Origin: Brachypterus glaber | Lineage: Eukaryota > Arthropoda > Insecta > Coleoptera > Kateretidae | Reading direction: 5' to 3' | DNA length: 64,000 bases | Assembly: GCA_958510825.1 (NCBI GenBank) | Contig: OY294045.1 | Coordinates: 12,451,916-12,515,915, forward strand | Part shown: positions 1,815 through 55,617 of the stretch, piece by piece | Position numbering within the stretch: position 1 is the stretch's first letter | Layout: each line of letters opens with the position of its first letter | Notes under the pieces: model-generated | The model's input: only the letters and a program-made list of their open reading frames with translations | Database searches by the model: none | Told to the model about the DNA's origin: nothing | Position numbers and translations under genes: made by a program

Positions 1815-1900
1815 ATATAAAGAACTTTCACTTTCGGGTTTAGACCGTGTTAATGGATTTTCACTTTCCGACGTTTCGTCTCTTACTACTAGAGACATCT
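1815..1900 (-). repeat. Left 86-bp inverted repeat of the Penelope-like element
   Basis: Exact reverse complement of 3115-3200 over all 86 bases. It ends inside the equivalent of the hammerhead CTGAAGA core (between CTGA and AGA), so the left copy lacks a complete ribozyme. Confidence 0.93.
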
Positions 1901-3067
1901 TTTATTATACGAGACCTACTTACAACTGGAAATCTTGACCCAAAGTTATGTAAATTATTTGAAGCTTGTCTGACATCTACATATTTTCTGATACAGGGAG
2001 AGTTCTATGAACAAGTGTCAGGCGCCGCAATGGGATCCCCATTATCACCCCCTGCGGCCAATGCTTTCATGGAATACTTCGAGAAAAAAGCTATTGAGTC
2101 ATTTCCATTAAAACCTAAAATTTGGCGTAGATACGTAGACGATGTCTATGCTATTTGGCCCCATGGCATGGAAAGCCTTCAAGGTTTTCTAAATCACCTC
2201 AATTCCCAACATAAATCTATACGGTTTACGATGGAAATTGAGAACAACGGATCACTTCCCTTTTTGGACGTTTTGGTTTACAAAACGGAAAATGGCTCAA
2301 TAGGACACTCGGTATACAGGAAGAAAACCCACACTGACAGATACCTAAACGCATTTTCACATCACCATCCCTCTCAAAAACGCTCGGTAGTTAATTCACT
2401 TGTTTATAGGGCTTTCATGATTTCAGACAAGAATTCCCTAGACACAGAACTCCTTAAACTAACCAAAGCCTTGACCATGAACGGTTATACCAAAAAAGAC
2501 ATTAATAAGACCATATACAAATACAGAAATCCCAGACCCAAACAACAGGACAATAGTGACAATGACAGACAGACACAAGTTATACTTCCCTATGTAAGCG
2601 GTATCACGGATAAAATAGGTAAACTTTTGAAAAAGTCAAATATTAAGCCTATATTTCGGTCCAACCAAAAATTAGGTCAATGTTTGACTTCAACAAAAGA
2701 CAAAATACCCCTGAGTTCAGAAGGCGTATATAAAATACCCTGCTCCTGTGGTACGGTTTACATAGGTGAAACTAAGAGAAAAATTTCTACAAGACTTCAA
2801 GAGCATGAGCGCAATATAAGAAAGAAACAAATTTCCTTATCGGCAGTAGCCGAACATGTGCATGAAACAGGTCATAAAATCAATTTGTCTGAAACAAAAC
2901 AAATATTAACAGAAAACAGAAAAATGCCAAGGAAGATACGGGAATCGATAGAAATCATCAAGCATCCTAAGAATATCAATCGGGACACTGGTTACCACTT
3001 ACCTGCAATATGGAAGTCTTTGATAGGAAAAACCTCGTCACGGGTGAATAACCACAACTCGTCATAA
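1847..3067 (+). CDS. Penelope-like reverse transcriptase (C-terminal part) with GIY-YIG endonuclease
   Basis: A 406-residue open frame, intact but N-terminally truncated. Residues 1-18 are read from the left inverted repeat and are not genuine protein; homology starts near residue 19. The motif-B-like segment AMGSPLSP is at 61-68, the catalytic YVDD box at 96-99 and LPFLDVLV at 137-144. A GIY-YIG-type region follows: GVY at 293-295, VYIG at 304-307, the conserved basic residues R311 and R316, and a helix ending EHER near 319. In this family the reverse transcriptase copies the element RNA at a nick made by the GIY-YIG domain. Motifs upstream of AMGSPLSP are absent, so this copy cannot be active alone. 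The C-terminal 390-406 tail is unremarkable. The stop precedes the ribozyme-like terminus by about 30 bases. Confidence 0.88.
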   Translation: MLMDFHFPTFRLLLLETSFIIRDLLTTGNLDPKLCKLFEACLTSTYFLIQGEFYEQVSGAAMGSPLSPPAANAFMEYFEKKAIESFPLKPKIWRRYVDDVYAIWPHGMESLQGFLNHLNSQHKSIRFTMEIENNGSLPFLDVLVYKTENGSIGHSVYRKKTHTDRYLNAFSHHHPSQKRSVVNSLVYRAFMISDKNSLDTELLKLTKALTMNGYTKKDINKTIYKYRNPRPKQQDNSDNDRQTQVILPYVSGITDKIGKLLKKSNIKPIFRSNQKLGQCLTSTKDKIPLSSEGVYKIPCSCGTVYIGETKRKISTRLQEHERNIRKKQISLSAVAEHVHETGHKINLSETKQILTENRKMPRKIRESIEIIKHPKNINRDTGYHLPAIWKSLIGKTSSRVNNHNSS

Positions 3068-4731: not shown

Positions 4732-7100
4732 AATAATAATAATAATAATAATAAAGCATTTATTCCGGCATATAAGCCATATCACATAGGAATATTAGAA
4801 AAAAAAAATAAAAATAAAACATACACAAAAATATATACATAAAAAAAAGGTTGGGTTTACAGTCATTATAACAAAAAACAAAGACGTCACCAACTTCCAA
4901 AAATAGTAGAGGTCCAGAAAACATCTGATGACACTACAGCTCTTAACAGATTGTTCTGGGTGCAGGAAAGGCGCTCTACAAAGCTGGCAAGCTTTTTTCT
5001 CCGAAGAGCGTCCAAGGTGTTAATTCGGGCTGTAGCAAACATTTCAGAGGCACTATTATACCGCGGAAGTCTGTGAATAATGCGATAGGCATTATTATAG
5101 CAAACGCGTAACGTACGCCAAGAAGCCACAGTGTGGTTGCACCAGAGTTCTCCTGAGTACAGGTCGTAACAGAAAGTCTTGAACAAAAGGTTTTTAACTT
5201 CTACAGAACACTTGCTGAATTTTCTTGCGATCATATTAGCACGAACACACAAGTTTTTATAGTGACGTTGAATTTCAGAGTTATCACACAGTGTATTGTC
5301 TATTATATGACCGAGATATTTAAGTTTAGATACCTGCTCGATAGGGGTATTATTAAGGGAAATTGAGGGAACAATCAGATCCCTATACACTGGGGGTTTA
5401 AATACCATTAGTTTACTTTTGTCCGTGTTGTATTTAAGAAATGTTTTTAACGCGAATTCTTCACATCTACGAAGAAGTAACCGGAGGCCTTCTAAAGAAG
5501 GACATAGTAGCACCATGTCATCCGCATATGAAATACAGTTAACTTTGATACTACCACAGAAACAACCAGCGGCAACTGCCAACAGGATATAGTGAAGTTC
5601 GTCAATATACGCATTGAAAAAATCAGGAGCTAGAAGGCTTCCTTGGCGTACACCATTTCGCAGTAAAAAGCTAGAAGATTTGATAGAACCCCACAGGATG
5701 AAGGCAGTCGCATTGAAGTTCCAGTTCTGAATCAGTCGGCATATGTAGCAGGGTACTTTCCGTTTCAAGAGAGCTTTTATTAAGGTAGGGTGATGAACTC
5801 TGTCAAAAGCCTTACTCAAATCCAAGAATAAAGCATACACTGGAGTGTTTTTCCTTATATTGTGGCTGACAGTTTCTTTCAGAAGGTAGATAGCTTCAGC
5901 AGTCCCCACATTGCTTTTAAACCCGAACTGGTTATCAGAGGTTTTTAGGCAATTCTTACATCTGCTAAGAATAACAAGTTCAAGGACTTTAGAAAGAGAT
6001 GTTGATATGGCGATAGGGCGATAGTTAGAAGAGTCAGATATGTCGCCGCTTTTGTTTTTGACAATCGGTATGATAATGCTCTTCGTTAGTGACGGGGGAG
6101 TTATGCCATGTGATCACATGCCCGAAAAACACATGGATAGAATAGGATATAAAGCTTCATGCGCATATATAATATATTCCGGAGAAAGGCCATCCCAACC
6201 AGCAGCCTTTCCACGCTTAAGCTGAGATATGGCAAGTTTAACATCGTTTGAGGGGACCATACAGGCTTCAAAGTTCTCAGCTTCAAAAGCTTCAGAAGTC
6301 TCGTCATCAAACAGATTACTAAGCTTTTCGAATTTCTTTGCCCAAAGTTCTGCAATGTCAGATTCACCAGAGGCCTGATCGACTGAGTTCGACAGCGAAA
6401 TTGAAGTCTTGCTTATTCTGCCGCAGGCTTTCCAGAATTTCACAAAGTTTTTGTCCAGGTGATGAGTAGCCAAGGCATCTGCACGGATTTGTTCTTCGCG
6501 GCTGCGTACAGATTTTAACTTGTGCTGAAACAGTTTTCGTAAACGACGCCTTCTGTCATTAAGGGGTTCCTCAGGAGGGCGACCAGCTTCCACCCAAAGT
6601 AAAAAGGCTTCATGTGCTTTTCTGTAGGCCTCAGCTACCTCTGCTGACCATCCAGGAATAGGTTTGGCTCTAGGCCTATTGTGGCGAAAGGATTCTGATA
6701 CAGAACGACGGAGAGCACTTACAATATCAGTATAAAATCTATCAATGTCTCTGCTATGATCAAGTCGGCTGCACATAGAGTTACGACAGTGGACGGCATC
6801 AGGTAGATTTACACATTTTAGGTTTAAGTAAGAGCGATGCTTGTAGGAATTTATAGACAAATTACATTTATCAGACCATTTGGGAATATCTGGTGAGTAA
6901 GGCGTAGATCTTGTTATAGCCGGTAGAATGGACGTTTTGAGACTGAGCGAAAGAGGAAAGTGGTCTGAAGAGGTAGTCGTTAAATCAACCATTACTGAAT
7001 CCACAGAGTTAGAGGCAGCATGAGACACTAAGCTGTGATCAAGCCAGGAAGTGGTAGAATGTACATCACTCACGAAGGTAAAAGTGTCAGCAGGCAGAGA
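4732..7100 (-). mobile_element. 5'-truncated non-LTR retrotransposon (LINE), Jockey/CR1-like
   Basis: Read on the reverse strand it carries the end of an apurinic-type endonuclease and a complete reverse transcriptase, and finishes in an (ATT)n tail (plus-strand AAT repeats at 4732-4757). TATAT flanks both ends (4727-4731 and 7101-7105) and occurs once in the uninterrupted family A copy near 48045, so it is the target-site duplication. The 5' truncation falls within the endonuclease domain. Clade assignment is tentative: the tail type and C-terminal region fit CR1/Jockey-like groups. Confidence 0.88.
4887..7100 (-). pseudogene. LINE ORF2 remnant: endonuclease end plus reverse transcriptase
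   Basis: One continuous reading frame broken by a single TGA at 6114-6116; frames 7073-6117 and 6113-4887 are in phase. The upstream part ends an endonuclease domain (STTSWLDH, then SDHFPL). The middle has a connector, and after the stop the frame reads SHGITPPSLTKSIIIPIVKN, the expected start of reverse-transcriptase domain 1. SNYRPIAIS, NQFGFKSN, FLDLSKAFDRVHH, NGVRQGSLLAPDF and the catalytic SYADD follow in order. A cysteine/tryptophan-containing C-terminal segment (KTFCYDLYSGELW, then NNAYRIIHRLPR) completes it. The enzyme would prime reverse transcription at a chromosomal nick. The 5' end is lost at 7100 and the stop is fixed, so it is dead, though otherwise remarkably open for about 730 codons. 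Confidence 0.88.
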
Positions 7101-11038: not shown

Positions 11039-11254
11039 TAAATCCCGAGCTGCGTAGCAGCGAGGGATTTAAGAGTGCGAGGCTATAATAGTCTTCTCTA
11101 CCGTAGTTTATATATTAGTTTTTTCACTACTAGCACTTTTTAAAAATAATAAAAAAGTGCTAGTAGTGAAAAAACTAATATATAAACTACGGTAGAGAAG
11201 ACTATTATAGCCTCGCACTCTTAAATCCCTCGCTGCTACGCAGCTCGGGATTTA
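11039..11254. repeat. Perfect hairpin, two 103-bp arms
   Basis: 11039-11141 is the exact reverse complement of 11152-11254 with a 10-bp AT spacer. Each arm end carries a nested mini-palindrome (AAATCCC ... GGGATTT around GCTGCGTAGCAGC). Immediately downstream (about 11245-11310) a degenerate further copy of part of the arm occurs in direct orientation to the left arm (TCGGCTATAAAAAATGTCTTCTC). It looks like a foldback element end. No TSD or coding region identified. Confidence 0.9.
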
Positions 11255-13406: not shown

Positions 13407-14689
13407 TTAAGAAGATTCTTTAAACTAATAGAATATAAAGCAAATTGTAAGTTTTTTGGTGTTTGTTCGGATGAACTGGATATTGAGATAGGAGTACCTC
13501 AAGGGAGTGTTCTAGGACCTCTTTTATTTTTATTATATTGCGACGATATAGAATTTTTTATAAATATTTTTTGGTGTGCTTTTGCTGATGACTTTTCACT
13601 TTTGTCTTACAATCCTTCAATGAACGCACTAAGAATCAAACTCCAAGAAAACTTGCAATCTGTCTTCGAATATTTTGCTAGAAATGGTTTAGTACTAAAT
13701 CAGGACAAGACAGTTTTTATGCAATTCTATCCATACGGCGCCTACTATAAGGAGAGTCCCTTAATAAAACTGAATAACAAAACTATTCAACAAGTTACTT
13801 CTACAAAACTATTGGGGGTTTTTGTTGACTTTTCTTTAAACTTTAAAGATCATGTGGATGACGTATGCAGTAAGTGCTGTAGGAACTGTTTTGCCCTGAA
13901 AAGACTACACCAAATATGTAGTGAAGATGTTGTTCGTACATTCTATATGTCTAATTTCTTATCTGTAGTAAGATATACAATTATTTTATGGGGTAATGCA
14001 TCTACATCTGATAGAGTTTTTGTTATTCAAAAAAGGGCCATTAGAAATATGTTTGGATTAAAATTTAGGGAATCATGCAAAAATACATTTATAAACAAAC
14101 GCTTATTAACTTTCCCAAGTCTCTATATTTTGGAAATGTTAAAATTTGTTAAATTAAATATAAATAAATTCAAATTATTAAATAATTCTCATGGTTATGA
14201 AACACGTCATGGTACTAATATTGAATATCCCATTTATGGGAGGCATAGCGTAGTGGCTAGCGCGTATGTATAGCAAGTCTACTATCGTAAGTTCGATTCT
14301 CACTGGCGCCGATTTGCCTTTTTCAGTTAATTAATAATTGAAATTTGGCGAAGGCGCTAAGTGAAACGGACATTCCCTAGAAACTGGTTCGAAAGTCAGT
14401 ATAAGCCGGTGGTTCCCTCTACTACTAGCCCACACAAGTCCTGGACTTAGGGGATGCTTGATTAAGTAGAATAGTACGAGGTTAATACAAACAAACAAAC
14501 AAACAAACAAACATTCATAGACTGGAATTACAAAAAAATAATCCCTACTATTTTGGCGCGGTTTTATACAATAAACTGCCTAGGCAGATAAGAGATTTGA
14601 GATATAATTTGTATATGAAAACTATTAAAAATATTTTGATTTTAAATGCATTTTACTCGGTTGAGGAGTTTTTGTCATACAATTTCTAA
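13407..14689 (+). pseudogene. LINE reverse transcriptase C-terminal part, split by SINE
   Basis: The frame is open from 13407 (TAA just upstream at 13404) to 14237 and continues in phase from 14513 after removing the SINE. Motifs in order: IGVPQGSVLGPLLFLLY at about 13488-13538, the catalytic CAFADDFSLLS near 13575-13607, GLVLNQDKT, then TKLLGVFVDFSLNFKDHV and the C-terminal region IILWGNASTSDRVFVIQKRAIR. After the SINE it resumes as HRLELQKNNPYYFGAVLYNKLP and ends SVEEFLSYNF. This is the thumb and C-terminal region of a Jockey/CR1-type LINE reverse transcriptase. Domains 1-3 are absent. Apart from the SINE no stop or frameshift is visible, suggesting moderate age. Confidence 0.88.
14238..14511 (+). 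mobile_element. tRNA-derived SINE with (CAAA)n tail
   Basis: The head carries RNA polymerase III promoter boxes: a perfect A-box TAGCGTAGTGG at 14246-14256 and a B-box AGTTCGATTCT at 14290-14300 (9 of 11 consensus). A ~190-bp unique body with a second GGTTCGAAAGTC-like stretch near 14387 follows, and the element closes with a (CAAA)n tail at about 14488-14511. It is flanked by a 7-bp target duplication, CATTTAT (14231-14237) and CATTCAT (14512-14518), one mismatch. It is non-coding and depends on a LINE for movement. No second copy is present in the window. Confidence 0.85.
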
Positions 14690-18180: not shown

Positions 18181-19987
18181 TTTTATTATAGTACCGTTCT
18201 ATATTTTCGTGAAGTATTTATTAAACCTCGTGCACAGTTTTTCTTGTGTTGTTACAACACCGCGGTCTGGAAACGATTTTTAGCTTAACTTTCATACAAC
18301 CCAAGTTTTTTTTCATAATTTAATTATTTAGAGCTGGCATCTTTTTAAGCCCAAATTAAAAAAAAATCTATCGATGCGTTTAAAAAAAAAAAATGATATA
18401 TTTAAAAATTATTTTAGATATTCAGATTTTACGTATTTATTTATTTTATTTATTTATTTTTTTTATTTATTTATTTACCGTTCTTTATTTTCGTGAAGTA
18501 TTTATTAAACCTCGTGCACATTTTTTATTGTGTTGTTACAACACCGCGGTCTGGAAACGATTTTTAGCTCAACCCATACAACCCAAGTTTTTTTTTTCAT
18601 AATTTAATTATTTAGAGCTGGCATCTTTTTAAGCCCAAATTAAAAAAAAAATCTATCGATGCGTTTTTAAGAAAAACGATTTTCATTTGATTTAACAAAA
18701 AAAATATGATATATTTAAAAATTATTTTAGATATTCAGATTTTACGTATTTATTTATTTTATTTATTTATTTTTTTTATTTATTTATTTACCGTTCTTTA
18801 TTTTCGTGAAGTATTTATTAAACTTCGTGCACAGTTTTTCTTGTGTTGTTACAACACCGCGGTCTGGAAACGATTTTTAGCTTAACTTTCATACAACCCA
18901 AGTTTTTTTTCATAATTTAATTATTTAGAGCTGGCATCTTTTTAAGCCCAAATTAAAAAAAAAATCTATCGATGCGTTTTTAAGAAAAACGATTTTCATT
19001 TGATTTAACAAAAAAAATATGATATATTTAAAAAGTATTTTAGATATTCAGATTTTACGTATTTATTTATTTTTTTTATTTATTTATTTACCGTTCTTTA
19101 TTTTCGTGAAGTATTTATTAAACCTCGTGCACATTTTTTATTGTGTTGTTACAACACCGCGGTCTGGAAACGATTTTTAGCTCAACCCATACAACCCAAG
19201 TTTTTTTTTTCATAATTTAATTATTTAGAGCTGGCATCTTTTTAAGCCCAAATTAAAAAAAAAAATCTATCGATGCGTTTTTAAGAAAAACGATTTTCAT
19301 TTGATTTAACAAAAAAAAAATGATATATTTAAAAATTATTTTAGATATTCAGATTTTACGTATTAATTTATTTTATTTATTTTTTTTTTTATTTATTTAT
19401 TTACCGTTCTTTATTTTCGTGAAGTATTTATTAAACCTCGTGCACATTTTTTATTGTGTTGTTACAACACCGCGGTCTGGAAACGATTTTTAGCTCAACC
19501 CATACAACCCAAGTTTTTTTTTTCATAATTTAATTATTTAGAGCTGGCATCTTTTTAAGCCCAAATTAAAAAAAAAATCTATCGATGCGTTTTTAAGAAA
19601 AACGATTTTCATTTGATTTAACAAAAAAAATATGATATATTTAAAAATTATTTTAGATATTCAGATTTTACGTATTTATTTATTTTATTTATTTATTTTT
19701 TTTATTTATTTATTTACCGTTCTTTATTTTCGTGAAGTATTTATTAAACCTCGTGCACATTTTTTATTGTGTTGTTACAATACCGCGGTCTGGAAATGAT
19801 TTTTAGCTCAACTTTCATACAACCTAAGTTTTTTTTTTTCATACTTTAATTATTTAGAGCATTGGCATCTTTTTAAGACCAAATTTAAAAAATCTATCCA
19901 TGCGTTTTTAAGAAAAACGATTTTCATTTGATTTAATAAAAAAAAAGATATATTTAAAAATTATTTTAGATATTCAGATTTTACGTC
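18181..19987. repeat. Tandem array, about six units of ~300-313 bp
   Basis: Units begin at ACCGTTCT around 18193, 18477, 18790, 19090, 19403 and 19716 (spacings 284, 313, 300, 313, 313). Each contains TTCGTGAAGTATTTATTAAA, GTTGTTACAACACCGCGG, GAGCTGGCATCTTTTTAAG and AAAAACGATTTTCATTTG, ending in TTTA-rich low-complexity sequence. Units are nearly identical; the first is shortened and the last most diverged. Most of each unit equals the arm of the foldback element that follows. Confidence 0.9.
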
Positions 19988-20642: not shown

Positions 20643-21429
20643 ACAAGTGCATTAAAGATACAGAGTATCTCAATAGTCTTTCATCATGCAATTTTGAGAA
20701 TATGCAACTTTGTAAGAGCTGGTGACCATTTTTATTTCACTATTTTCTCCCAGCTGTATTTTATATATGTTTTAAAGTAGGGGGAAATACCCATGAAGGG
20801 GACATATTATTAAATGGGACAGTGCCTGTTTCTGAACTATGCTTCGTAATTTTTGGTTTTTGTTACCATGCTTAGGTGGTCCTATATGTGCAGTTAAAAA
20901 ACAATAAAAAATGGCAAAGTTTAGGTAGCTGGGTTTTTGACAAATTTAATAAATCAGTTCTACCAAGTCAAAAGTATTTTTTTTAAATAATTTTGAAAGA
21001 TATTTTATTGTCGAAAGGTAAAAGGAAATTGTTTAAATTTGGTTTATGTAATAGTCTAGAACAACACGAAACCTATGCCAAACAATCGAATATTCTAGAT
21101 AAATGTAAATATTTTTAGCCTATTTGATAAATTTCTTTTCCTTGAATGAGGCAACTATTTTACTGCATATTTCATTTCCATTTATCTCTAATTCTCTCTA
21201 AAAGGACAGAAAGTCTCTAGGATACTACCCATAAAACAATTTAAAACAGTTCCAACTCAAAATAAACTAATATGTGATATTGATTCAAGAAAACATGAAC
21301 CAAAGTTTGGTAAAATTATTGAAAGTAAATTCTATGCAAAAAAAAGAATGTAAGACTTTAACAGCTATTTTTTTTTTGTTATTAAATGACATTATAGGTC
21401 GTTGTTATTAGTAAGTGATAATAATACCC
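20643..21429. other. AT-rich spacer, nothing recognised
   Basis: No gene, repeat family or tandem structure that I can support. Confidence 0.4.
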
Positions 21430-22085
21430 TTTTAACTTTTGAACGAATTAAAATATCGACTTCAAATTTAGAACTCTTAAATAAGACAACTTAAACTATC
21501 TTTAAGCATATATTGGATATTTTCAGCTCCTAAAATGTGGGCAGGGGGGCATGGGGGACATTTTTTTAAATGGAAAGGGGGGTCGTGTGATACATCATTT
21601 TAAAGCTTATAATATTCTCCAACATTTTTAGGTTTTTTAAAAATGTTTTTTTAAGGTTTTGATTTTTCAATTTTTTGTGCTAAAACATTCGATTTTTTAA
21701 GTTTTTTTTATAAATTTTTATTTGTGTCAACTAAAATTAGTTTAAAAGTATAATTAACATTTTTTTATGATGAAATTAGGCATTTTTAAAAAATTATTTG
21801 TTTTTTTTTAGAGGAATTTTGACATTAATACCCATTTTAAACCCAAATATATTTTTTTTTAATTTAAAAATACGGAGTAAAATGGAGAATTTTATAAGCT
21901 TTAAAATGATGTATTACACGACCCCCCTTTCTATTCAAAAAATGTGCCCCCATGCCCCACTGCCCACATTTTAAGAGTTGAAAGTATTAAATATAAAAGA
22001 TAGTTTAAGTTGTCTTATTTAAAAGTTCCAAATTTGAAGTCGATATCTCAACTGTTTCAAAAGTTAAGACTTTTGGACCTCTCTG
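21430..22085. mobile_element. Family D MITE, left end missing
   Basis: Nearly collinear with 33150-33851: the C/G-run arms (GGGGGGCATGGGGGACATT near 21545), the AT-rich centre (TTATTTGTTTTTTTTAGAGG) and the right terminus ending GGACCTCTCTG before TA. The left terminal ~20 bp containing CAGTGCGGTCC are absent. Its right ~90 bp are included in the tandem duplication that follows. Confidence 0.8.
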
Positions 22086-23369
22086 TATTTCGATTAGTAT
22101 ATTTTCACAGTTTTAGACAATTATTCAGCAAGCCAAGTGGTAAAAAAAATACTTTAAAAAGTTCATTTGACATATGTCAATACTATAAAGTTGAAATAAT
22201 TTCCATTTAATCAAAATGTCATTTCATAAATTCTCATTTCTTTAAAAAATCGAGTATCGCATATGTCAAAGAAACTTTTTAAAGACTGTTCTTGGCCCTT
22301 GGCCTCAGAATTATTGTGTATAACTATGAAAATAGCTTAATCTGAATGTAATAAATCTAATGCAAGTTAGATTTCTTGGTATACTTTGACGCGCGGATCT
22401 GTGGCTACGGGAAATATGTTTGGAATGTGTGTGCAAGTGGGAGGCCCGTTGCAGGCACACACGCCTTATAACGCTCGTGACGGAAAGAAGAGAGCGCGAA
22501 TGATTCCTCCCCCTTTCTTCGGAGACTTTGTTTCATGCGGAGAACTATATCTCATTGTCACAGGTTTCGGAGCTTCTAGAACCCAAAGGAACCGGATTCG
22601 GAGCCTAGCAATTTCGGAATAGCTTTATTTGAATGTACTTTAAGACATGTATAAAATAAAGCAGAGAGAAAATGATGAAATAAAAATGGTAACCAGATTT
22701 CCGACTACAAAACGAATAACAACATGCGCTAAAAATAAAAGACATTCAATTAATTAATTTCAAAGCAATTAACCAAATTATTCCATCTTGCTGCAAACTC
22801 TAATATGGTTAAAATTTCCTAATGTTTGAAAGTTAACTTTTAAAACAATTGGCTATAAGAAAAATATGATGAAGATACTTTAAGGGTCCACGAACTTTCA
22901 TCAGATTTATTAAGGTTTTTTGTTTTAGTTGCCAACGTTTTAGTCATATGTTTGGTATTTAGGTACCGTTTAATTTTGGAATGCTGTGGTTACGTGCGGT
23001 TGAATCAATTGGTAGTAAAATCTGTTACCGTGCTTTGAGAGCGGTTACAGCGTTTTTCTTCTTGTTTTCTTTATAAGTTTGTAACAGATAACCTATAATT
23101 TGAACTTGTTTAATGTAGATAGGTATTTTTAATGGATCTATGCCCAGTAGAATTTTAAATAAACGGGTTAAAAGTGATATAAAGAAAAATTCTGTCAAAA
23201 CAAATAGGTTATGTTTACCTGTCAGTGTAACCAAGATATTCAAATGCAGTTTTTTTCCAAAAACAATTATTACAAAAATTAAAAAACAACAATGAAAGTT
23301 AAATTTGTCAATATCTCAAAACCATGTTTTTGGACTTAGTGCTCTTTACTTGTTAGCCGACGATATGCT
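21995..23369. repeat. Tandem duplication unit 1 (1375 bp)
   Basis: From AAAAGATAGTTTAAGTTG to the same motif at 23370. It contains the right end of family D, a comparatively GC-rich stretch (22390-22620), and an AT-rich remainder. Unit 2 is about 97 percent identical by eye. Because the junction lies in family D sequence, unequal exchange or slippage after D inserted is likely. Confidence 0.88.
22386..22622 (+). other. GC-rich core of the duplication; open frame judged non-coding
   Basis: The stretch holds a 78-codon frame (MTRGSVATGNMFGMCVQVGG ...), repeated in unit 2 at 23769-24005. The two copies differ at four codons (residues 3, 25, 33 and 42), and all four differences change the amino acid, which argues against selection on a protein. 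No family recognised. The higher GC content, the TATAA-like CCTTATAACG near 22465 and the following AATAAAG hint at an old promoter or terminal segment of some element, unproven. Confidence 0.4.
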
Positions 23370-25330: not shown

Positions 25331-25704
25331 TAAATAAACTTAAGACGATATTATCTCTCCAAAAATGTTTTTATTATTATTATATAAATAATAGCGACAT
25401 GTTTCTGACCTTTTTAACTTAGGGCCATCTTCAGGCTAATAATTAAAATTAAAACAAACAACAACAGTTACATTACAAGTATACTGGTTTAATGTAATTG
25501 TTGTTTGTTTTTAATTTTAATTATTAGCCTGAAGATGGCCATTACATTACACGTATACTCGTTTAATGTAATTGTTTTTTGTTTTTAATTTTAATTATTA
25601 GCCTGAAGATGGCCCTGCGTTAAAAAGGGCAAAAACATGTCGCTATTATTTATGTAATAATAATAAAAACATTTTTGGAGAGATAGTATTGTCTTAAGTT
25701 TATT
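25331..25704. mobile_element. Inverted pair of Penelope-like termini
   Basis: Arms 25331-25460 and about 25575-25704 are inverted copies, roughly 92-95 percent identical. Each contains GCCTGAAGATGGCC, ACATGTCGCTATTATTTA and ACATTTTTGGAGAGATA. The centre has an extra direct copy of the inner part, ending again in GCCTGAAGATGGCC (about 25525-25537). No coding body remains. The CTGAAGATG ... ACATGTCG pattern parallels the end of the Penelope-like element at 3111-3146. Confidence 0.65.
25388..25445 (-). ncRNA. Candidate hammerhead ribozyme (left arm, reverse strand)
   Basis: Reverse strand: CTGAAGA at 25434-25428, stem II TGGCC/GGTCA, GAAA at 25405-25402, palindromic ACATGT as stem III, then C (25396) at the cleavage site. 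Stem I pairs TAGC with GCTA for 4 bp. All core positions are intact, with U-A instead of G-C at the base of stem II. The right-arm version (25603-25641) has A in place of the first G of GAAA and should be inactive. Confidence 0.5.
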
Positions 25705-33135: not shown

Positions 33136-33851
33136 CAGTGCGGTCCAAAAGTCACCCCCCCCCTCTTAACTTTTGAACCAGTTGAGATATCCACTTCAAA
33201 TTTAGAACTTTTAAATAAGACAACTTACTATCTTTTAGCATATATTTGATATTTTCAGCTCTTAAAATGTGGGCAGGGGGGCATGGGGGGACATTTTTCT
33301 AAATAGAAAGGGGGGTCGTGTGATACATCATTTTAAAGCTTATAAAATTCTTTATTTAAAATAATATTTTTAAATTTTTTAAAAATGTTTTTTAAGGTTT
33401 TGATTTTTCAATTTTTTATGCTAAAACATTCGATTTTTTAAGTTTTTTTTTATAAATTTTTATTTATGTCAAATAAAATTAGTTTAAAAGTTTAATTAAC
33501 ATTTTTTTATGATGAAATTAGGCATTTTTAAAAAATTATTTGTTTTTTTAGAGGAATTTTGACATTAATACCCATTTTCAACCCCATTTTAAACCCATTT
33601 TTTTTTTTTTAATTTAAAAATATGGAGTTAAATGGAGAATTTTATAAGCTTTAAAATGATGTATTACACTACCCCCCTTTCCATTTAAAAAAATGTGCCC
33701 CCATGACCCCCTGCAACATTTTAAGAGCTCAGAGTATTAAATATATGCTAAACGATAGTTTAAGTTGTCTTATTTAAAAGTTCCAAATTTGAAGTCGATA
33801 TCTCAACTGGTTCAAAAGTTAAGAGGGGGGGGTGACTTTTGGACCGCTCTG
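33136..33851. mobile_element. Family D MITE, complete copy (716 bp)
   Basis: TA-flanked (33134-33135 and 33852-33853). The terminus CAGTGCGGTCCAAAAGTCA is inverted at the right end, reading ACTTTTGGACCGCTCTG. The arms extend about 230 bp each and include conspicuous C/G runs and GGGGGGTCGTGTGATACATC. The AT-rich centre is shared with 21430-22085. The CAGTG..GG.CCAAAAGT end and TA target resemble Tc1/mariner termini; no transposase is encoded. Confidence 0.85.
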
Positions 33852-33974
33852 TATTATAATTAATATAGGTGTTAATCAATATAGTAATAAATACGACATT
33901 ACTGTCAAAATTACCGTATATTTATAAAAAATTTGCTAAGAAAGTTTGAAGCGTGTATCTTAGTATGTGTAGTC

Positions 33975-41604: not shown

Positions 41605-42590
41605 AATCAGCCAGAAATCACAAAAGTCGTCCGCCATTTTGACCAAAATTTTTTAATATATGGCACAGAAAACCCCCAGATACCGATTTTGGTTCGAATT
41701 GGCAATTAATGACACAAATCATCCGCCATGTTGATGCCGCCATTTTGATTTTTTTGTAATTATGACAAAAAATTCGTAATCTACTACCCCGAAAAACCCC
41801 TGATACCGATTTTGGTTCGAATCGGCCAGAAATCACAAAAGTCGTCCGCCATATTGGCGCCGCCATTTTGATTTTTTTAATCTTAACAAAAAATTGGTAA
41901 TCTATGACCCCGAAAACCCCCTGATACCGATTTTGATTCGAATCGGCCAGAAATTACAAAAGTCGTCCGCCATATTGGCGCCGCCATTTTGATTTTTTAT
42001 TTTGACCAAAAATTCGTAATCTACGACCCCAAAAACCCCCTGATACCGATTTTGGTTCGAATCGGCCAGAAATTACAAAAGTCGTCCACCATATTGGCGC
42101 CGCCATTTTGATTTTATTAATTTTAACAAAAAATTCGTAACCTACGACCCCGAAAACCCCCTGATACCGATTTTGGTTCAAATCGGCCAGAAATCACAAA
42201 AATCGTCCGCCATATTGGCGCCGCCATTTTGATTTTTTTTAATTTTGACAAAAAATTCGTAATCTACGACCCCGAAAACCCCCTGATACCGATTTTGGTT
42301 CAAATCGGCCAGAAATCACTAAAGTCGTCCGCCATATTGGCGCCGCCATTTTGATTTTTTTAATTTTAACAAAAAATTCGTAATTCACGACTTCGAAAAC
42401 CCCCTGATACCGATTTTGGTTAAAATCGGCCAGAAATCACAAAAGTCGTCCGCCATATTGGTGCCGCCATTTTGATTTTTTTTAATTTTAACAATAAATT
42501 CGTAATTCACGACCCCGAAAACCCCCTGATACCGATTTTGGTTCAAATCGGCCAGAAATCATAAAAGTCGTCCGCCATATTGGCTTAAAA
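41605..42590. repeat. Minisatellite, about eight ~121-bp units
   Basis: Each unit contains CGGCCAGAAATCACAAAAGT, CCGCCATATTGGCGCCGCC, ACAAAAAATTCGTAATCTA and ACCCCCTGATACCGATTTTG. Starts fall near 41607, 41697, 41822, 41943, 42062, 42183, 42306, 42427 and 42547. The first two units are more diverged. Open frames across it simply reflect the repeat. Confidence 0.9.
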
Positions 42591-52745: not shown

Positions 52746-54470
52746 TTATTAAGGGTCTCCAAACATAAGAAATAATAAATTAAATAAAAATAACTAATTT
52801 TGTATTTATTTTCTGTGAGATATAACAAAATATTAATATCTTTTGATATTAGACAAATAAATTACAATCAAATTTAGTATATTGAGATTAAGAATCTTTA
52901 AAATTTGTTATTGTTATAATCAAATATTTAGAAAACTTATAGAGAATTTCTAGAGCTACAAGTTTGATCATAACCACTTTTAACCTCTGATGAATAATTT
53001 GGCTGAAAATTAAAAAAAAAAAAATAATTCACCAACATGGTTATTTTTGAATTAAATTGATTATTATTAATATAAACCATAGAAAAAATGTTATCTCTCC
53101 AAAATGTAAATTTATTGTCTATTAAACAAACATTACAGCGATAAATATTTTTGTTTAATAACTTTTCCAAAATTTTGTTCTATTTTGGATTGTTTTTGAG
53201 TTTTGGATATGAATTTGCTGCCACCTCTCCAATTTTATTTCAATTACCAAGTTAAATATAAATTAATCTTTTTCCTTTTTTATGTTTAACTACTTTTTTG
53301 CAGTTTAAAGATAATTACTTTAGTCTGTTTGAAATATAGTTTGGATTATTTTATGATAGATGTCCCAGATTTTTATTCAATTTTAAATTTTAGATTTAAC
53401 TTATTGTAGTTTTCTTTTTGTTTAAATTTTTAAGATTTTATAAAAATAATATAGTTAAGGTCAGTATGACATTTCTAATAATGTGTACTCAAGTTAATTT
53501 GTTTATAAATTTAAAAAGTAAGTTTTTCTAAAAGGAATTGTACCATTTTTAACCTCATTTTTCATTATTTGTAGCTTGAAAATGACTTTATGTTAAAAAA
53601 GTCGAAACAATTGTCACTGTAATGTTTGTTTATTAGACAATAAATTTATATTTTGAAGAGATAAAAATTTTTCTATGGCTTATTTAAATCAACTCCAATG
53701 AGTAAGAATCAAGAATTTATTAATTTTATTATTAATATATTTAAAAAATAAACCAAACAAAATATTTTGGAAATTTCCTCCTCAACCAAATTGGTTATAT
53801 CCATTTTTATCATAAGTTGCATATTAAGTAACTCACCCCTAAAATTAAAGACAGCGGAGATCCCTTAGCAAATCACCCGGTGAAAAACTAACAGGAGTGT
53901 TCTGTTACCATCTACTACTACTCTTTAAAATATCATCCCATGTACATTTATTGCAATTTAAAATTATTATTTCACTGGACTATAGCAAAATGTTGACATA
54001 ATATTATTTATTTCTTCAATTAATATGGAATAAAATTTGATATCACATGAAGCCCGCTAATAGATTGATAATTTATTATTGCAAGCGATGCAATCTAAAG
54101 TTTCCTTTTAAGACAAAGGGCTCTATAAATAAATTCAAATAAGGATGTGGAAATTGTATATATTGTATAATATTGTATAAAATTACAATTTGCTAATCTA
54201 TACGTGTAAAAGCGAAGAAAGCTTATCGAAGCTTATATTGAGATTTCAGGAAAAAAGACTTCTATGGACTTGACTTTTTGCATATAAAATAGTAACTGGT
54301 AAAAGTCTAGAGGCCATACAGCTGACTTCGAAACCAAACATTAAGCTCAATATTTTTACGGAATATTTTATCAATAACTGAAATTTTAAAATGATACCTC
54401 ATTAAATGCTTAGATTTTGGCAACAATTCCACCTCACAGGGCTTCGTTCATAAAATACTATTACAACTTA
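52746..54470. other. AT-rich spacer, nothing recognised
   Basis: About 1.7 kb without a gene or recognisable repeat. Short frames are biased to AT-rich codons. Confidence 0.45.
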
Positions 54471-54593
54471 TACCGGGTGTCTCAATTTTATTCATCCAGC
54501 GATTTTCTCGTAAACTGTAAGAAATAATCAAGTTCTGAGAAAACCATTTTAAATAAAACAACTTAAACTATCTTTTAACATATATTTTATATC

Positions 54594-54788
54594 AAACATT
54601 TTACTATTCCTTAAAACGACTTTTGTTTGATTAACGCAGTCGTCCCTCCGAAGTGACTGATCGATTTCGTGCTTTTTAGCACTCTTCAGAGCCACATATC
54701 GGTAGTAGGGACAACTACGAAAATCAAATCCTTTCCATATATCTCTATATAGAGTTTAAAAATCGTTGTAAGGAAAAGCAAAAACAGC
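54594..54788 (-). repeat. Left arm of the perfect palindrome
   Basis: Exact reverse complement of 54880-55074 over 195 bp. TTTTATAT at 54585-54592 and 55072-55079 is a possible 8-bp target duplication. Carries the reverse-strand hammerhead (54702-54648). Confidence 0.93.
54648..54702 (-). ncRNA. Hammerhead ribozyme candidate, mirror copy
   Basis: Reverse-strand identical copy of 54966-55020 within the left arm. A transcript through the whole locus from either strand would carry one sense ribozyme and one antisense copy able to sequester it. Confidence 0.76.
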
Positions 54789-54879
54789 TAGCGATATCTA
54801 CTGCTATAAGCAGAGACTGGATAAACCTATCGATAGTCCAAAAAAGGAAGCAGTTATTGGTTTCAAGAACCTATTGCAC

Positions 54880-55074
54880 GCTGTTTTTGCTTTTCCTTAC
54901 AACGATTTTTAAACTCTATATAGAGATATATGGAAAGGATTTGATTTTCGTAGTTGTCCCTACTACCGATATGTGGCTCTGAAGAGTGCTAAAAAGCACG
55001 AAATCGATCAGTCACTTCGGAGGGACGACTGCGTTAATCAAACAAAAGTCGTTTTAAGGAATAGTAAAATGTTT
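54880..55074 (+). repeat. Right arm of the perfect palindrome
   Basis: Perfect inverted partner of 54594-54788, separated by a 91-bp centre (54789-54879) without coding content. Carries the plus-strand hammerhead (54966-55020). Confidence 0.93.
54966..55020 (+). ncRNA. Hammerhead ribozyme candidate, canonical core
   Basis: CTGAAGA (54979-54985), stem II GTGC/GCAC (54986-54989 with 54996-54999) closed by a TAAAAA loop, and GAAA (55000-55003). Stem III is the self-complementary ATCGAT (55003-55008), followed by C (55009) as the nucleotide before the cleavage site. Stem I pairs GTGGCT (54973-54978) with AGTCAC (55010-55015), including one G-U; after an ATAT/TT internal loop CCG (54966-54968) pairs with CGG (55018-55020). 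All invariant hammerhead nucleotides are present. A loopless stem III in cis is unfavourable, so a dimeric form is the likely active one. Activity is inferred, not shown. Confidence 0.78.
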
Positions 55075-55617
55075 TATATAGATTTTTTAAATTTGTAAAT
55101 ATCAAACAATTTAATTTAGTTTATATATTTTATACTTTCAGCTGTATGTATACACGGGAGCATAGAGGGACATTTTTTTATATAGAAAGGGGGGTCGTGT
55201 GATAAATCATTTTAAAGCTTATAAAATTCTCAATTTAACTATATTTTTTTTATTTTTTTAAAACATTTCTTTTTGGGTTTAAAATAAATAAAAATTTACA
55301 AAAAAAAACTTAAAAAATAGCATTTACTAGCATAAGAAATTAAAAAATCAGAACCTTAAAAAAATTGTTTAGAAATTTAAAAAATATACAGTCCAATAGA
55401 GAATTTTATTTGCTTTAAAATGATGTATCACACGACCTCCTTTTTATTTAAAAAAGTCCCCCCCCCGTGTCCCCCTACCCACATTTTAAGAGCTGAAAGT
55501 ATCAAATATATACTAAAAGATAGTTTAAGATTATCTCTTTTACTTTTCCAGAAAATCGCTGGGTGAATAGACCGGGACACCCGGTATACAGAGGGGGTTG
55601 ACTTTTGGACCACTCTG

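Follow-up and report, generated by a model that had tools for sequence, protein, structure and literature searches.

The 64-kb stretch of Brachypterus glaber DNA analysed here (the window) carries an inverted repeat without a single mismatch, in which two arms of 195 nt each (54594-54788 and 54880-55074) are separated by a gap of 91 nt. The first-pass annotation had described these perfect arms around a 91-nt centre, and the window sequence confirms them; if 98% identity is accepted, the arms widen to 209 nt (54588-54796 and 54872-55080). The insertion as a whole is larger than the palindrome first noted, since it measures 531 bp (54592-55122) and is bordered on each side by a 12-bp target duplication, ATATATTTTATA (54580-54591 and 55123-55134). 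In an alignment to a 436-nt unit that is repeated in the genome (unit positions are prefixed with q), the 91-nt centre belongs to the left arm, which is the longer of the two, and is a stretch (q97-192) without counterpart in the right arm; a further 42-nt tail lies outside the right arm. Judged from this alignment, the palindrome is a single insertion made of two unequal partial copies of the unit, placed head-to-head. A flip of the centre by recombination was considered and dropped, as the unit alignment shows that the arms are merely unequal. The features of the locus are as follows.

54592-55122, no strand assigned: entire retrozyme insertion with two head-to-head arms, 531 bp, with a 12-bp duplication at its borders; when joined, its flanks align with paralogues of the repeat around it.
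54580-54591, no strand assigned: left copy of the target-site duplication, ATATATTTTATA, with AAC just before it (duplication comparison, empty-site paralogues).
55123-55134, no strand assigned: right copy of the target-site duplication, ATATATTTTATA (same evidence).
54588-54884, minus strand: B arm, antisense, from unit position q393 down to q97, its first 4 nt within the target duplication (98% in the alignment to the 436-nt unit).
54880-55122, plus strand: A arm, sense, unit position q193 to q435 (100% in the alignment to the 436-nt unit).
54880-54884, no strand assigned: junction microhomology, five bases compatible with both arms (unit alignment).
54789-54879, minus strand: 91-nt centre, the part of the B arm without an A-arm partner (inverted repeat and unit alignment).
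55081-55122, plus strand: 42-nt tail spanning site B to site A, in the A arm only (unit alignment, position by arithmetic from the unit).
54637-54707, minus strand: hammerhead motif of the left arm (Rfam RF02275, 28.4 bits, below gathering).
54961-55031, plus strand: hammerhead motif of the right arm (Rfam RF02275, 28.4 bits, below gathering), with a predicted cut at 55009/55010 taken from the layout.
54469-55588, no strand assigned: older inverted-repeat element hosting the retrozyme, with ends TATACCGGGTGTC and GACACCCGGTATA (inverted-repeat search, empty-site paralogues).

Six of the 11 matches of the surrounding repeat within the window run across the joined flanks and represent the empty site, and the match at 33209-33860 has the target sequence once, in a slightly different form. 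Besides the copy around the insertion, for which the family comparison gives 54469-55595, members of this host family are found at 1-240, 21427-22152 and 33138-33907, and the presence of several copies in one window suggests a high copy number of the host element. Among the other features of the window are a second perfect palindrome (11039-11254, 103-nt arms, 10-nt spacer), in which the motif scan found no hammerhead, tandem arrays at 18379-19986 (period 313 bp) and 41668-42584 (periods 121 and 243 bp), and a tRNA-like Rfam match of 33 bits at 14239-14311 (plus strand) that ARAGORN, run with the bacterial code, did not report.

Both arms match the Rfam model Hammerhead_HH9 (RF02275) as mirror images, with 28.4 bits and an E value of 1.2e-4 in a search of 1251 nt. 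The covariance-model match that was sought as a check on the ribozyme assignment is therefore present in both arms, only at a level under the gathering score of 52; at the Rfam gathering threshold the whole 64-kb window gave no hammerhead, and at E values up to 1 the same model also produces matches in four of 14 control genomes. The arms contain the full set of invariant core letters of a type I hammerhead, and the pattern CTGANGA - stem II - GAAA, with at most three mismatches, occurs twice in the 64 kb, a number reached in none of 100 shuffles. This upholds the earlier description of mirror-image hammerheads with a complete core. A looser motif scan of the window gave one extra match, at 25434 on the minus strand. 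Stem I, stem II and the outer helix that had been proposed all appear in the predicted fold of 66 nt (-20.2 kcal/mol, z -3.3, no equally stable structure in 200 shuffles), which also ties up three core bases and is not a pure catalytic fold.

The predicted cut at 55009/55010, between q322 and q323 of the unit, agrees with the hammerhead layout. Since helix III in this layout is a single A-U pair capped by the palindromic loop UCGA, the predicted self-cleavage is probably more efficient in a dimer; the gain in a two-molecule fold prediction is just 2.4 kcal/mol. A similarly weak helix III, in which a palindromic tetraloop caps a single pair, is described for axolotl retrozymes, of which the dimers cleave much better (PMC7229834, in the text available). 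In the predicted fold of the full-length insertion transcript the sense ribozyme is fully paired with the left arm, and the ribozyme of the window copy may therefore be masked. When covariation was inspected, 28 of 32 fetched copies could be parsed, with one two-sided paired change (L107) and several mispairs; no selection is claimed from the pairing, because the model itself picked the copies. Rfam microRNA matches over the hairpin, below gathering, were attributed to its shape. The ribozyme core had no occurrence in viral and none in prokaryote sequence collections. Two copies of another hammerhead-like motif, at L115 and L118, have no match to the retrozyme unit.

The abundance of the element became apparent outside the window. 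With the palindrome arm as query four places in the genome were found, one of which (L004) revealed the 436-nt direct repeat, and with this unit as query at least 124 matches were obtained (40 scored of 922 candidates), often in tandem and nearly all 96-100% identical, with one at 89%. The 33-nt ribozyme core occurs in exact form 1959 times (1010 + 949) in the 648-Mb genome, which comprises 842 contigs, as compared to 0 for the reversed control. A sister core with CUGAUGA has 21 occurrences, some of them within copies whose identity to the unit is 77-84%. Stop-free stretches of the repeated unit reach at most 41 codons in the sense and 84 codons in the antisense direction, so that the unit is non-coding. 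The supposition of a non-autonomous, hammerhead-bearing retroelement without a coding body is in agreement with a non-coding unit that is spread across the genome, and a single-copy arm, which would have spoken against it, was not what the searches returned: the arm was found at four places and the unit and core are high-copy. The idea of an inverted dimer of a 195-nt unit has to be abandoned, as the mobile unit is the 436-nt tandem repeat and the arm is merely part of it.

On sequence grounds, the window copy is a member of a young, high-copy, protein-less family, which qualifies as a retrozyme by the DNA-level features tested. Animal non-LTR retrozymes are described in the text of PMC7229834 as short, AT-rich, non-coding tandem elements with a type I hammerhead, no LTR and target duplications of more than 4 bp, and in all of this the present unit is alike. 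Its 436 nt, non-coding, arranged in arrays and present in many copies, come close to the maximum of the 150-450 bp reported for such units (PMC7229834); tandem units stand in place of LTRs and the duplications are of 10-13 bp; the hammerhead is an intact type I by its core letters, with an HH9 score of 28.4 bits against a gathering score of 52. A hammerhead in invertebrate tandem repeats is also described for pDo500 of cave crickets, termed satellite DNA in the part of PMC6155905 available, a likeness by description only.

The most striking regularity concerns the way in which the copies are arranged. Two samples of insertions were mapped: a first of 43 insertions (the 40 scored loci of the unit search, the window copy, L002 and L003) and a second, not picked by score, of 20 of the first 23 insertions along one contig (C1). 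Two-armed insertions make up 36 of the 43 in the first sample, every one of them head-to-head, with seven one-armed, and 16 of the 20 in the second, again without exception head-to-head, with four one-armed. The outer ends fall at two places, site A (q433-436) and site B (q389-407), with about 42 nt between them. In the first sample 34 of the 36 two-armed insertions combine an outer end at A with one at B, the exceptions being L064 (B/B) and L072 (A/truncated); in the second sample this holds for 14 of 16 (L129 judged by eye), with no A/A and no B/B, and with one end elsewhere in each of the exceptions L141 and L144. As L061 and L062 resemble one duplicated locus, dropping L062 leaves 35 two-armed insertions, 33 of them A/B. 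Among the first 100 ribozyme positions, which are a selected, young set because the exact core was required, 27 of 57 clusters have both strands, all in the order minus-then-plus; one of these 27 consists of two neighbouring insertions.

Outer ends are fixed and inner ends variable among the mapped insertions, and copying crosses the hammerhead cut site. Run-off at the ribozyme cut was rejected as the usual inner end: five of 77 inner ends lie within q318-328, as compared to 1.9 expected, a weak excess. Three of the first sample's seven one-armed insertions have their inner end at q318-328 and none of the second sample's four. In one-armed L048, L051 and L052 the inner end is at most 4 nt from the predicted ribozyme cut, as if by run-off from cut RNA. 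The overlap at the inner junction is 2 nt or more in 22 of 35 insertions, against a random exact-match figure of 18%, which is a somewhat different measure.

At the target, the duplication is 10-13 bp in 23 of 25 anchored sites; in all 43 insertions, an exact duplication of 11-15 bp is present in 31, with the other 12 shorter, mismatched or absent (absent in L048). When the 25 anchored sites are oriented with site A to the right, a motif appears around the duplication, AAAC before and GTTT after it. Column counts out of 25 are 20 for A at -3, 25 for a pyrimidine at -1, 14 for G at +1, and 18, 18 and 15 for T at +2, +3 and +4. With 70% A+T in the background, single T or A columns are weak; the informative columns are those of C/T and of G.

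An assembly artefact, or a fold-back DNA transposon or MITE that carries a ribozyme by chance, would be conceivable in that palindromes are error-prone in assembly and the repeat around the insertion has inverted ends of its own. Outer ends that are constant while the inner ends vary, tandem units of 436 nt, the duplicated target and the empty-site paralogues, together with 1959 exact ribozyme cores against none of the reversed pattern, make such an origin hardly credible.

Whether both arms derive from one RNA can be judged from their substitutions. In 35 two-armed insertions, eight substitutions are common to both arms of one insertion (spread over five insertions), and seven of these eight are absent from every other insertion of the 35; a shuffle test gave a mean of 0.45, with eight or more in none of 5000 shuffles. 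This suggests that the arms of an insertion are copies of one source that was copied twice, and ongoing conversion, which had been offered as an explanation for the arm identity, is not needed. By overall distance there is no extra closeness of paired arms (1.44% within and 1.38% between, 34 insertions); L054 alone contributes 40 of the 105 differences in that comparison, and most variants are confined to a single segment.

Identical arms in a head-to-head layout would equally be accounted for by self-priming, in which a single cDNA folds back and copies itself, as proposed for Penelope palindromes (PMC3846280, in the part available). The arm content is compatible with such snap-back copying where the B arm lies inside the A arm, which is the case in 22 of 33 and 2 of 14 A/B insertions in the first and second sample, respectively. 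In the other 11 of 33 and 12 of 14, including the window copy, both arms contain sequence that is absent from their partner, so that neither can have been copied from the other, which refutes snap-back for these insertions. Moreover, the arms begin at different sites and target duplications flank the inserts. As a general explanation we regard snap-back copying as very unlikely.

The two-primer insertion proposed below could use as template a monomer circular RNA that is copied round and round, according to the model in PMC7229834, and retrozyme circles are abundant in the animals of that study, as its text describes. The copying across the hammerhead cut site is also what a ligated circle would permit. 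Variants covered by at least two segments number 200 in 36 insertions, of which 189 occur in one segment, eight in some and only three in all. This pattern counts against a single circle, because one circle should place template variants in all units, although it could be obscured by exchange among units at a later time, by errors made during copying and by subsequent mutation. The eight variants in some segments are a hint in favour of a multimeric template, which later exchange could mimic. A circular template is a possibility that we take seriously, at well below even confidence.

Which machinery inserts these copies may be approached by comparison with Penelope-like elements, since PMC7229834, in the part available, names LINEs or Penelope-like elements as possible movers of retrozymes, with the latter as strong candidates. 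According to the available text of PMC11167929, the purified Penelope protein of a lizard cuts both strands, extends them and initiates at two adjacent internal sites, which accounts for the tail; hammerhead cleavage is unnecessary in vitro. Penelope inserts have pLTRs that are inverted head-to-head, with a 31-bp tail on one of them and duplications of 8-10 bp (PMC3846280, in the part available). The retrozyme insertions share the inverted head-to-head ends, the one-sided tail and the short duplications, as well as the AT-rich target and the hammerhead upstream of two end sites (PMC3846280; PMC11167929, both as far as available). They differ in the tail (30-40 bp in Penelope, about 42 nt here, which we counted as the same trait) and in the length of the duplications (8-10 bp as compared to about 12 bp). 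A further difference is that site A is paired with site B in the insertions studied here, whereas the choice of start site in vitro is without strand difference in the text of PMC11167929; a pairing of this sort is not mentioned in the available text of either Penelope paper. Penelope elements encode a reverse transcriptase and the unit codes for nothing, for which reason it is not a Penelope element itself. The assignment to a retrozyme kind with a Penelope-like insertion signature, raised with a "perhaps" at first, gains support from the DNA-level features and the two-armed ends.

Penelope-like elements that carry RT and GIY-YIG reside in this genome. GIY-YIG matches occur in at least 31 places (150 scored of 419 candidates), and a 3.0-kb tandem, L085, has a 716-aa frame with RVT_1 and GIY-YIG. 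In a first hammerhead scan of Penelope-like elements only L085 and L088 were positive; a looser scan gave candidate hammerhead-like motifs in L085 and seven of ten further 3' flanks (L086-L090, L092, L095), a poor motif in L093 and none in L091 and L094. Rfam at E values up to 5 gave no hammerhead in L085 or six Penelope flanks. The motifs of families L085/L088/L090, L087/L095 and L089/L092 have one extra base before stem II, and in the first of these the first core base C is replaced by T. In one Penelope family, with few copies, alignments between copies end past the predicted cut, by 51-60 nt in the terminal copy of L085 and in L088 and by 86-88 nt in L090, and in the retrozyme unit sites B and A lie about 71 and 113 nt past it. 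As far as these few sequences indicate, the two may have the same layout of end sites after the cut. No Penelope family with the A/B region of the unit was found in the 11 stretches examined, two of which gave short AT-rich matches; the Penelope-like families in the genome exceed those examined.

RVT_1 reverse-transcriptase fragments are present in the window itself (1847-3067, plus strand, below the curated cut-off; 4887-6110, minus; 13407-14270, plus), and LINE mobilisation by ordinary target priming, with frequent twin priming, could be proposed on that basis. Twin priming by L1 yields inverted 5' ends with microhomology at the junction, both strands being primed on one RNA, as we propose here. 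In L1 it is occasional and is not known to have a fixed second start, whereas in the retrozyme the two-armed form is usual, site B serves as a constant second start in combination with A, and the one-sided tail is like that of Penelope. We consider LINE mobilisation unlikely.

Taken from the sequence patterns, the probable explanation is a non-LTR retrozyme with a 436-nt type I hammerhead unit, inserted by Penelope-type two-primer copying. A Penelope-type endonuclease/reverse transcriptase would cut both target strands about 12 bp apart, at the symmetric AAAC...GTTT motif, after which both 3' ends would act as primers on one shared RNA, with synthesis beginning at site A from one of them and at site B from its counterpart; short homologies would then join the two cDNAs. 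The palindrome would have identical arms because one RNA is copied twice. Processing of the RNA would fall to the hammerhead, which probably works best in dimeric form and would have been uncut or re-ligated wherever copying crossed it. The mode of action that we infer by analogy is two-primer target-primed reverse transcription of the Penelope type. More tentatively, and with somewhat less than even confidence, we propose that Penelope machinery copies one multimeric, internally uncleaved RNA, starting at A on one strand and at B on the other, with palindromes as the normal product.

Compared to the retrozymes of PMC7229834, most insertions found here are two-armed and head-to-head with A/B ends, and the main text of that paper is without the word 'inverted'. 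No description of two-armed retrozyme insertions was found in the open-access papers searched; the kind of element, a retrozyme, is known, and the insertion rule seems new within the open-access literature covered. About two thousand young ribozyme copies form a natural record of the reaction, from its starts and their pairing to the target motif, the junctions and the sharing of a template. A single protein and a single RNA would suffice to test which enzyme and which template are used by animal retrozymes, and the unusual form of Penelope insertions gains a possible reason. If the two-primer multimeric mode is true, it would account for the inverted pLTRs and the tail on one side that have long been noted in Penelope, it would name the mover of animal retrozymes, and a multimeric template would supersede, for this host at least, the model in which a circular RNA is copied.
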